A program made the position numbers and the translations under genes. Positions 6,173 to 40,772 of a DNA stretch of 64,000 nt are shown here, in pieces. Source of the DNA: Pelagihabitans pacificus. Its GTDB lineage: Bacteria > Bacteroidota > Bacteroidia > Flavobacteriales > Flavobacteriaceae. Location of the stretch: the NCBI RefSeq assembly GCF_009371985.2, contig NZ_VIKU02000002.1, positions 186,001 through 250,000 of the forward strand, read 5' to 3'. Below the pieces are notes generated by a model. It did no database searches. It was given only the letters and a program-made list of their open reading frames with translations, and was not told the DNA's origin. Positions within the stretch are counted from its first letter, which is position 1; every line of letters starts with the position of its first letter.

Positions 6173-6697
6173 TTAACTATTTATTTTTTGAAATAAAATT
6201 TCATCTTTATAGACTCCGTTCTCAAAAATCCAATCTTTTTTCACGCCTACTTGGGAAAATCCCAGCTTTTTGAAAAGGTGCAGACTAACCTCGTTGTCGG
6301 CCCCAACGTTGGCAAATAGTTGCCTTAGGTCCAAGGTGGCAAAGGCATAATCGATCAACAACGAAATGGCCTCGCCCCCTACCCCCTTATTTCTATTTGC
6401 GGTTTCCTTCACTACGATGCCAACACCTGCCCGACGGTTTTGCGGATCGAAATCAAAGAGGTCTATTAATCCTAAAACCTCATCCTTCAGGGAACAAATT
6501 GCCAATCGCAGCTGTTTCACATCGTAGATATCCCGATGAGCATTTTCCAGATACTGGCGCAATACATGTTTTGAATAGGGTGTTATCGTACCGCTAACTT
6601 CCCAAATTGTAGGGTCGTTTTCCAGCTGATACAAGAATTCCAGATCGGTAGGCTCCAATGCCCTCAGATAAATATGTCGTCCTTTCAGTCGCTGCAT
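6173..6697 (-). CDS. GNAT N-acetyltransferase, RimJ/RimL-like
   Basis: This is a 174-residue acetyltransferase with the RimJ/RimL layout. 'GRHIYLRALEPTDLEFLYQLENDP' opens the fold. 'RRAGVGIVV' and 'NKGVGGEAISLLIDYAF' form the acetyl-CoA pyrophosphate loop, and 'VGADNEVSLHLFKKLGF' is the classic closing helix. Substrates are usually protein N-termini, amino acids or spermidine, and none can be assigned here. It overlaps the 3' end of dapF by 13 bases and directly precedes mltG, so it is translationally coupled within that operon. Confidence 0.92.
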   Translation of the reverse strand: MQRLKGRHIYLRALEPTDLEFLYQLENDPTIWEVSGTITPYSKHVLRQYLENAHRDIYDVKQLRLAICSLKDEVLGLIDLFDFDPQNRRAGVGIVVKETANRNKGVGGEAISLLIDYAFATLDLRQLFANVGADNEVSLHLFKKLGFSQVGVKKDWIFENGVYKDEILFQKINS

Positions 6698-39355: not shown

Positions 39356-40054
39356 TTAGAGATATACGTAAATAAGCCCGGTGACGATGGCGATGCCGAA
39401 ACTCAAAAGGGTCCCGATAAGGATATACTCCGTTAGTTTTCTATTGTTCTTTTCCTTTAAATCATTAAAGCGGAAAACCGACTTCGCGGTAATCAATAGT
39501 CCGATGGCTTCCCACTTGCCAAGTATGATGAACAACAACACAAAAAGCCGTTCGATGATACCGATATACTTTCCGGCATTCGGTAGCGATTCATGGTCTA
39601 GTTCAATTTGGTCGGACATCCTTTCAAGTAGCTTCCCCATGATGATCGCGGCGGGAAAGCTTACAAAAACCACACCGGCGACCAATGGCCAGGCGATACG
39701 TTCCGATAGCGATAGGGTGTGCTCCCAAAGGTCACCGTAATAGGCACATGCATACAGTACAAGTACGTGCAACAATTGGTCGATAAAAAAAGGAATGTTT
39801 TTATAGCTGAAATACTTGGTGGTATAAAGCTTGGCCAAGTCGATTATATAGTGGGAAGTAATGATAATCAAAGCTATGGGCCAATAGGACAGGTCCCACA
39901 ACAATACCATGGTCACGACTAAGTGAAGTACTATGTGCAGATATAGGTACTTCGATTTGATTTTATGGGATTCCTTATGAAGTACCCAGGAATTAGGCTG
40001 AAGCACAAAATCACCGATAAGATGGGCCAAAAGCAGTTTTATAAATAAGGTCAT
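39356..40054 (-). CDS. DUF3307 multi-pass membrane protein
   Basis: This 232-residue protein has about six hydrophobic helices. The N-terminal half carries an ordered series of polar residues inside helices: His11 and Asp15 ('LLLAHLIGDFVLQP'), His40 and His44 ('LHIVLHLV'), His68 and Asp72 ('TSHYIIDLAK'), and Asp92 and His96 ('FFIDQLLH'). That spacing suggests a metal site within the membrane, as in membrane-bound hydrolases, but no activity is known for DUF3307. The ATG overlaps the satD stop (ATGA), so the two are translationally coupled. The SatD-DUF3307 pairing is one I know from several phyla. Confidence 0.82.
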   Translation of the reverse strand: MTLFIKLLLAHLIGDFVLQPNSWVLHKESHKIKSKYLYLHIVLHLVVTMVLLWDLSYWPIALIIITSHYIIDLAKLYTTKYFSYKNIPFFIDQLLHVLVLYACAYYGDLWEHTLSLSERIAWPLVAGVVFVSFPAAIIMGKLLERMSDQIELDHESLPNAGKYIGIIERLFVLLFIILGKWEAIGLLITAKSVFRFNDLKEKNNRKLTEYILIGTLLSFGIAIVTGLIYVYL

Positions 40055-40665
40055 TGTGGAACTTTTTTAAGAATTGTTCGGTAGTAGGCCAGCAGTTCGA
40101 GTACCAGATCCAAACGCGCTCGTTTTTGCCGTTGACTAACGGCAGACTGTTGAATACCTAGTTGTTTGGCTATTTCTTGTTGTGAGGCCATTGGATTTTC
40201 CAAGACCAAGGCCACGATTTCAGCAGAAACAATGCTCCAATCATCCATGAAATCAAGGGCAAGTTTTATCAAGAGGTTCAATGTATGGTCGTAAAAATCA
40301 TCCCCGGTGGCAATGGTTAAGTTTATTTTATCTTCTTTCAATGTTTCAAAAGTTCTCCCTGAACGCTGATAGGCAGGCCCGTTCGATTCGCTCACCCCCG
40401 CCCCTACAAAAGTTTCTTGACCTATTCCGATACCCATTCGTACATCGAGACCCTTGATGGTCTTTATCAAAGCCTTGATGCTAACGGCTACCTCTAAGGC
40501 TTGGGCCTTGGGCACTCTTAATTGAAATTCATCCCCACGATAGATTTCCCAATCCCTTGGGGAATCACCTAAGGTCGCGAAGTATTTTTTAAGAATTCCC
40601 AACCACTCCGAAGCAGAATAGTTTTCAGAATTGATGATATCGCCGGTTATTACTGCTACTGTCAT
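40051..40665 (-). CDS. SatD family protein: palm-like domain plus helix-turn-helix
   Basis: This is a 204-residue protein. The N-terminal part reads as a beta-alpha-beta-beta-alpha-beta unit with Asp9 in 'AVITGDIINS', the hairpin 'YRGDEFQL' (GDEF at 44-47) and 'VRMGIGIG' (75-82), closely resembling the motif order of GGDEF and nucleotide-cyclase palm domains. The C-terminal part holds a helix-turn-helix ('QQEIAKQLGIQQSAVSQRQKRA', about 162-183). SatD is named after the streptococcal sat (secretion and acid tolerance) locus; its activity is unknown. I use ATG 40665, because the open frame reaches a TTG at 40677 that lies inside the operator-like repeats. Confidence 0.82.
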   Translation of the reverse strand: MTVAVITGDIINSENYSASEWLGILKKYFATLGDSPRDWEIYRGDEFQLRVPKAQALEVAVSIKALIKTIKGLDVRMGIGIGQETFVGAGVSESNGPAYQRSGRTFETLKEDKINLTIATGDDFYDHTLNLLIKLALDFMDDWSIVSAEIVALVLENPMASQQEIAKQLGIQQSAVSQRQKRARLDLVLELLAYYRTILKKVPQ

Positions 40666-40666
40666 T

Positions 40667-40750
40667 TTATAAGCCAAAGCGCTAATATATAATATTATAA
40701 GCTAATATGCTAATATTTATGATTATAAGTTAAAAAGCTAATAAATTTCG
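40667..40750 (-). repeat. three tandem 28-bp repeats in front of satD (probable operator)
   Basis: Units 40667-40694, 40695-40722 and 40723-40750 each read TTATAAGC/T-N6-GCTAATA followed by seven variable bases. The two boxes recur at an exact 28-bp period (40667/40695/40723 and 40681/40709/40737). TTATAAGC and GCTAATAA are near inverted copies, so each unit is also a dyad. The array starts one base upstream of the satD ATG. SatD itself has a helix-turn-helix, so autoregulation is likely. Confidence 0.8.
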
Positions 40751-40751
40751 G

Positions 40752-40759
40752 AAAAGATA
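40752..40759 (-). promoter_or_regulatory. candidate -7 box for the satD operon
   Basis: TATCTTTT on the minus strand (seven of eight to TAnnTTTG) lies just upstream of the 28-bp repeats. Transcription from it would start within the array. Confidence 0.35.
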
Positions 40760-40772
40760 AACAGGCCATTGT

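Follow-up and report, generated by a model that had tools for sequence, protein, structure and literature searches.

A tandem dyad array next to the satD start codon as a probable SatD self-operator, with a spacing kept across phyla

We analysed a stretch of 64,000 nucleotides of Pelagihabitans pacificus (contig NZ_VIKU02000002.1, positions 186,001 to 250,000; hereafter the window) in which three dyads with a period of 28 bp lie next to the start codon of satD, the first gene of a presumed operon with a DUF3307 gene. This array is most probably a SatD self-operator on which SatD dimers would load cooperatively and repress the satD-DUF3307 operon; we estimate the probability of this reading at about 0.86. 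A self-operator had already been proposed in the original prediction, and it is now supported by the linkage of arrays to satD, by the covariation of box letters with the SatD recognition helix, by box calls at held-out loci and by the differing arrays of two satD copies in one genome. From these sequence comparisons we infer direct binding, the dimers, cooperativity and repression rather than activation.

The array and its linkage to satD

In the window TTATAAGC begins at 40667 and 40695 and TTATAAGT at 40723, while GCTAATA begins at 40681, 40709 and 40737. The half-sites are best written as TATAAG(C/T)-N6-GCTAATA, with successive axes exactly 28 bp apart. The dyad nearest to satD (TATAAGC-N6-GCTAATA, 40668 to 40687, axis 40677.5) lies 2 bases from the satD ATG, which occupies 40665-40663 on the minus strand. 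It is followed by a second dyad with the same half-sites (40696 to 40715, axis 40705.5) and by a third, TATAAGT-N6-GCTAATA (40724 to 40743, axis 40733.5). The full repeat, the proposed SatD self-operator, spans 40664 to 40747 in a repeat search, its first 2 bases being part of the ATG; neither the repeat nor its dyads are assigned a strand. It takes up most of the intergenic 107 bp (40666-40772) and consists of three copies of 28 nt, spaced 28 and 28, with identities of 100, 79 and 68%. Tandem Repeats Finder reported a period of 28 with 2.8 copies and a score of 91, the top of its 22 rows in the window. The original prediction had described near-dyad units next to the satD start codon, a strict 28-bp period of both boxes, and kept boxes within drifting filler; the nearest dyad, all six start positions and the limited identity of copies with periodic box positions bear this description out. 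An alternative, longer satD from a TTG at 40677 would begin within the array, and the ATG is favoured by the alignment of relatives.

The array was evaluated with a letter-blind detector that looks for three dyads with 6-bp arms, an inner gap of 0-16, a first interval of 22-35 and a second interval within 1 of the first. The window array scored 198, which was reached by none of 3340 dinucleotide shuffles drawn from 167 satD upstream regions; the 99th percentile of this pool, 172, served as threshold. Among 2554 sliding 150-bp segments over the 64 kb, values above 172 were found solely on the satD array, and the runner-up region near 6200 scored 170 with intervals of 30/31. A genome search with two dyad patterns did not find a second array outside the satD locus. 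A regulon-wide operator, considered for arrays and not single sites, was rejected: TTAG-N6..9-CTTATA had 19 genome matches against 103 for the reversed-pattern control and was in tandem in only three, and TWAGY-N6-RMTWATA had 21 matches against 44, 6 of the 21 being two readings of the three window dyads. Two lone near-perfect SatD-type dyads were seen elsewhere in the genome (G000:C1:276882-276899 and 557897-557914). We also dropped an even spacing of half-sites every 14 bp as a real feature, which depends on the half-site cut chosen.

The 167 upstream regions comprise the window, 80 close relatives (the best 80 of 174 found in a genome scan) and 86 places, besides the window's own, from a phylum-wide PF16264 search of 395 Bacteroidota genomes, 79 of which matched. 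A three-dyad array above the 99th shuffle percentile was present in 124/167 regions. In 123 of these 124 both intervals were 28 or 29 (the exception being 30 and 29), compared with 229/3340 shuffle maxima. The presence of boxes at orthologous loci had been put forward as a check, and it gave a divided answer: the 28/29-bp dyad architecture recurs in 73/80 close relatives and 50/86 phylum-wide places, whereas the box letters are not conserved. Among the 43 regions that failed the three-unit test, 19 hold a two-unit array at p <=0.02, with intervals of 29 (14 regions), 28 (3) or 27 (2). In a simpler lag test, run on the last 120 bp, the best lag was 28 in 59/81 loci and 29 in 12/81; in 42/81 the best lag of 28 had p <=0.005. 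A control scan covered 374 regions upstream of other open reading frames (ORFs) in the 80 loci, and the 16 that passed were all the satD array viewed from a divergent gene.

In these 16 Flavobacterium-type loci (L053, L055, L056, L059, L063-L067, L069, L072, L073, L075-L078) the array lies between satD and the divergent gene, and it may influence both promoters. In L069, seen from the divergent gene, the array is present yet farther from satD. The divergent gene, translated in four loci (L053, L065, L067, L069), looked by eye like a 3-hydroxy-3-methylglutaryl-coenzyme A (HMG-CoA) lyase.

Arrays were also found beyond Bacteroidota. We examined 13 plasmid satD loci from Bacteroidota, Pseudomonadota of the Gamma- and Alphaproteobacteria, haloarchaea and Arthrobacter with two tests per locus and 200 shuffles each, so that p is at least 0.005. 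Two- or three-unit arrays with a period of 28 or 29 were detected at p <=0.02 at 11/13 of them, namely in Segatella, Vibrio lentus, Salinivibrio (two loci), Pseudoalteromonas (two), haloarchaea (three), Sphingomonas (one) and Agrobacterium (one). The Salinivibrio loci (p 0.015 and 0.02) and the Pseudoalteromonas loci passed the two-unit test only. The haloarchaeal sites are G+C-richer; for them the two-unit fit yields the period of 29, and the three-unit fit was best at intervals of 23/24 (L174, L175) and 30/29 (L176). On a Sphingomonas insulae plasmid (L173, 2354-3867) satD-DUF3307 stands beside genes annotated as a Pycsar effector family protein and an adenylate/guanylate cyclase, with a TIR-domain gene near; this is a possible defence neighbourhood. 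Viral contigs yielded one SatD locus only, an IMG/VR contig (L181) on which a SatD-like gene precedes an ORF of 256 amino acids that looks like a membrane protein and, by eye, resembles DUF3307; two SatD queries found no match in phage records.

Box letters, the recognition helix and the SatD protein

The window satD (40051 to 40665, minus strand) encodes 204 amino acids with Pfam matches to SatD and Sigma70_r4. The SatD match (PF16264) reaches 37.5 bits against a cut-off of 29 (E 2.5e-9). The Sigma70_r4 match (3.3e-6, above its cut-off, residues 149-185) covers a C-terminal helix-turn-helix (HTH) at residues about 149-187, in line with the HTH claimed earlier for the first gene of the operon, and all 57 A1 members matched this HTH at E <=5. 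The proposed specificity residue, Q178, lies in the recognition helix.

Across loci the half-site letters vary with the recognition helix while the geometry stays. Box classes were tabulated for 104 SatD proteins of the T/KGD type; assignment to a class needs three box matches, and passing the array test was not needed. At the residue aligned to Q178, Q went with TATWAG in 62 cases and R with TATTAC in 10. TATCG boxes were accompanied by E (10), D (3) or G (2), TATCTG by E (3), ATTCC by K (2), TATATGC by T (1) and ATTCGA by F (1); H occurred once with TATWAG, on the long branch of L150, and 9 proteins received no call. In 62 representatives motif similarity correlated with recognition-helix identity at r 0.76 and with N-terminal identity at r 0.72. 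Given N-terminal identity, the partial Mantel r for the recognition helix was 0.40, reached by 0/2000 permutations with the tree unmodelled, and the first part of the HTH added 0.07. Of all tested columns, Q178 had the highest partial association with the box (0.53), followed by E46 (0.37), A175 (0.35) and L187 (0.34). We regard boxes that change together with the SatD helix as better evidence for SatD as the presumed binder than plain sequence conservation.

The association also mostly held for loci outside this set. DUF3307 was found in 95/395 genomes, 50 of them without a PF16264 match, and 40 of the 50 were used as held-out loci. A SatD-like ORF precedes DUF3307 in 38/40, and 25 of these 38 carry a three-unit array, all 25 with intervals of 28/29. 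Here residue 178, located by regular expression and not by alignment, was used to predict the box, with patterns fixed beforehand. The 24 testable loci gave 16 right calls (8 of them of the R-TAC type, probably one clade and therefore non-independent), 1 wrong and 7 without a call; permuted predictions were correct 5.2 times on average and never reached 16 in 10000. Some of the seven loci without a call showed other kinds of boxes by eye (L206, L207).

Moreover, eight genomes carry two satD genes. In six of them (G211, G171, G203, G054, G163, G282) an array was detected at each copy by the three- or two-unit test, and differences between the boxes parallel those between the helices. In G054, for instance, TTTCA occurs with the helix NRDQIWKRR and TATCTG with QSNVSEAL; G054 and G163 carry near-identical copies. 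G274 has a single array, and both copies of G229 pass the two-unit test only.

Half-site distances hint at how the dyads might be occupied. Measured with fixed patterns, the inner distance between facing half-sites is 14 in 155/162 TATWAG and 86/86 TATTAC cases and 15 in 30/33 TATCG cases. The outer distance is looser for TATWAG (14 in 76/131, 15 in 42/131, other in 13/131) and TATCG (13 in 14/23, 14 in 7/23). This fits an inner dyad that would be the site of one dimer, with about 1 bp of slack between dimers in two of the three classes. From the kept 28/29-bp spacing and the drifting filler we infer a contact between neighbouring dimers.

The N-terminal part of SatD (residues about 1-135) resembles the palm-type domains of class III cyclases and GGDEF proteins; cyclase activity is a candidate only. 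In hhalign comparisons of the SatD N-terminus with profiles of 25 class III cyclase and 22 GGDEF domains, the probabilities were 92/88 and the scores 45.2/40.1, and cyclase against GGDEF itself gave a probability of 61. The best of 200 column shuffles scored 21.4/23.8, reversed profiles 9.6/11.6 and DUF3307 15.4. D9 is found in 163/165 SatD proteins (2 gaps) and D45 in 165/165, and they align to the aspartates of the cyclase 'TD' and 'GD' motifs, which bind metal in cyclases. Class III cyclase and GGDEF families were absent among the matches listed in a Pfam search of SatD. A sequence search of the PDB gave 22 matches, nearly all on the HTH and with a best E of 0.038, and PADLOC and PHROGs gave HTH matches only (best 0.023 and 0.00054).

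Proposed mechanism and alternative explanations

In our model, a SatD dimer would grip each inner dyad through the C-terminal HTH, and neighbouring dimers, spaced by 28 or 29 bp and most likely in contact, would load cooperatively. Loaded over or next to the satD promoter, they would repress the satD-DUF3307 operon, and the palm-type N-terminal domain may sense or make a nucleotide that sets occupancy. The geometry would be old and the letters would drift with the protein because protein-protein contact would maintain the period and the recognition helix would constrain the letters.

The position of the promoter bears on repression. TAnnTTTG is the -7 box of Bacteroidota, described in a paper in which leaderless mRNAs make up 5.5% (PMC9723704). 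It occurs in the last 60 nt of 56/149 array loci against 11.8 expected from mononucleotide shuffles and ends 3-5 nt upstream of the ATG in 34 loci. In 31/56 it is found downstream of the third detected dyad, at a distance of more than 14 bp. Repression by occlusion would fit the window and those loci in which array and box overlap; in the others the array sits farther up.

Several observations weigh against a SatD self-operator or against repression by occlusion. The TAnnTTTG box falls within the array span (<=14 bp past the third axis) in only 25/56 loci, and by eye no perfect box was found in the window. Some satD genes have no detectable array: L037, whose SatD is 62% identical with the same recognition helix, and L195 have none in the 150 bp upstream of satD. 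The places of group f18 passed the three-unit test in 0/10 and the two-unit test in 4/10, and L173 (Sphingomonas) and L179 (Arthrobacter) showed no array by either test. In the viral contig L181 no array was visible by eye. The outer distance of TATTAC arrays is nearly fixed (14 in 64/67), and the dimer assignment leans mainly on TATWAG. Finally, the permutations of the partial Mantel test ignore the tree, and E46 and L187 rank high though outside the recognition helix; they may be clade markers. Parsimony on an N-terminal tree of 50 gave 8 residue changes and 8 motif changes. Specificity changes lie deep in the tree and leave only 1 well-supported independent pair for Q against other residues and 3 for E against other residues; therefore, a phylogenetically controlled test is without power.

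The alternative that survives best is that SatD acts at the array as an activator or, in the manner of restriction-system C proteins, as a dual activator-repressor; distal dyads would recruit polymerase, and the proximal dyad would repress. The 31/56 boxes well downstream of the third dyad, where a block of polymerase is not required, would suit such a role, as would the array between two divergent genes in the 16 Flavobacterium-type loci. However, the window array reaches to within 2 bases of the ATG, and occlusion is favoured there and in the 25/56 loci with the box in the array span. We consider such a role unlikely, although it deserves to be kept in mind.

It is very improbable that a different host regulator, such as a global factor varying between clades, binds the array instead of SatD. 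The box changes do follow clades, as expected for a clade-specific factor. However, two satD genes come with two different arrays in six genomes, for which a clade-wide regulator offers no explanation. Moreover, the protein position with the strongest association lies within the recognition helix of SatD itself, the held-out predictions were mostly right, and arrays accompany satD on plasmids of other phyla.

Each dyad is able to form a short hairpin, and the array might act as an RNA leader with repeated hairpins. This hardly credible reading was rejected on account of the 31/56 loci in which the array lies upstream of the promoter box, so that transcription from that promoter would miss it; nor would such a model accommodate the covariation with a DNA-binding helix. 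A functionless slipped tandem repeat, suggested by the A+T-rich intergenic DNA and the Tandem Repeats Finder report, has a negligible chance of being correct and was dismissed, as in the original prediction, in favour of a protein-site array, since boxes are kept with variable filler within arrays and the 28/29-bp period is maintained across unrelated letters in distant groups, including the G+C-richer haloarchaeal sites.

The DUF3307 partner and comparison with known systems

The second gene of the presumed operon (39356 to 40054, minus strand) encodes a DUF3307 protein of 232 amino acids (Pfam DUF3307, 2.2e-27) with about six hydrophobic segments, and its ORF overlaps the satD stop by 4 bp. 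It matches phrog_2470 at 4.8e-12. The same-strand gene upstream of satD encodes a PEMT/ICMT-like methyltransferase. A profile built from the window DUF3307 protein matches the next gene in 157/166 loci, and 101 of these 157 partners overlap satD by 4 bp; a single-sequence search found a related next gene in 135 loci. Several of the nine loci without a matching partner are near contig ends. SatD proteins of the T/KGD type have the partner in 101/103 loci, mostly with 220-260 amino acids, and other types in 56/63, often with about 105-115 amino acids or long. The varied partners at L082, L084, L091, L101, L102, L108 and L115 have their C-terminal part in common, which lies beyond the Pfam domain, and some partners of 105-115 amino acids look like the C-terminal membrane domain alone. 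Judged from these examples, the constant partner of SatD is probably this membrane domain, whereas the Pfam model covers the N-terminal part. When the 60 best partners out of 157 were aligned, some H, D, Q and K residues proved invariant.

A broader idea, which we offer tentatively and hold to be rather doubtful, is that SatD and its partner, DUF3307 or the C-terminal domain of it, form a widespread two-gene module of bacteria and archaea, similar to guard or toxin-antitoxin systems. A palm-HTH protein would polymerise at its own promoter on a dyad array private to it, sense or make a nucleotide and restrain a membrane effector with invariant His/Asp/Gln, and copy-specific operator codes would avoid cross-talk.

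In the open-licence literature we found no SatD operator and no molecular function of SatD or of DUF3307, which agrees with the earlier statement that no described operator of SatD was known to its author. The operator appears to be new, as do its cross-phylum geometry despite drifting letters, the partial recognition code and the presence of a palm-type domain in SatD. The array would give SatD, the product of a little-studied gene, a concrete role as autoregulator, a specificity position (178) and a partial recognition code. The arrangement also occurs in distant bacteria and archaea with letters that differ with the protein, and a geometry that outlives its letters across phyla would be a clean natural example of co-change between repressor and operator. 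Copies within one cell would offer natural repressor-operator pairs that differ from each other. A palm-type domain would tie nucleotide signalling to a family whose name comes from streptococcal acid tolerance. In Streptococcus pyogenes, satD is reported to be essential for strains of types emm1, emm28 and emm49, although not all genomes carry it (178/249; PMC11323703). By analogy, this essential yet patchy occurrence might suit a repressor or antitoxin that keeps something harmful in check.

In its working, SatD resembles an autoregulator on a tandem array and is most likely a repressor. The operators of C proteins consist of two neighbouring dyads. C proteins of restriction-modification systems are HTH autoregulators with specific operators, and incompatibility follows operator specificity (PMC3874152). 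They differ from SatD in the partner genes, as the annotation of eleven plasmid loci contains no restriction gene within 2-2.5 kb of satD. HipB chains were among the top non-significant PDB matches of the SatD HTH (E 0.038-0.061), which covered the HTH only. Antitoxins act through inverted repeats to repress the operons that encode them (PMC3874152); in contrast to HTH antitoxins such as HipB, SatD is accompanied by a DUF3307 partner with several hydrophobic segments.

The Omega and PaaR repressors of omega-epsilon-zeta and paaR-paaA-parE are, like SatD, encoded by the first gene of their operon, and Omega binds cooperatively to repeats in its own promoter with an affinity set by repeat number and orientation; attempts to inactivate paaR in its toxin-antitoxin context led to cell death (PMC3874152, PMC4803016). 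However, Omega is a ribbon-helix-helix protein on 7-bp heptads, whereas SatD has an HTH, dyad units of 28/29 bp and a palm-type domain. The Omega and PaaR operons are tripartite toxin-antitoxin systems, and a toxin in SatD-DUF3307 is a candidate only. In Panoptes, OptS is a palm protein with Asp6 and Asp57 that adjoins the membrane-disrupting effector it restrains (PMC12657218). SatD likewise has an invariant aspartate pair, D9 and D45. No HTH or operator array is described for OptS in the passages of PMC12657218, and a nucleotide product or effector role of SatD-DUF3307 is putative. By analogy, the closest system in its working is Omega/PaaR, and the closest in its parts is Panoptes OptS-OptE.
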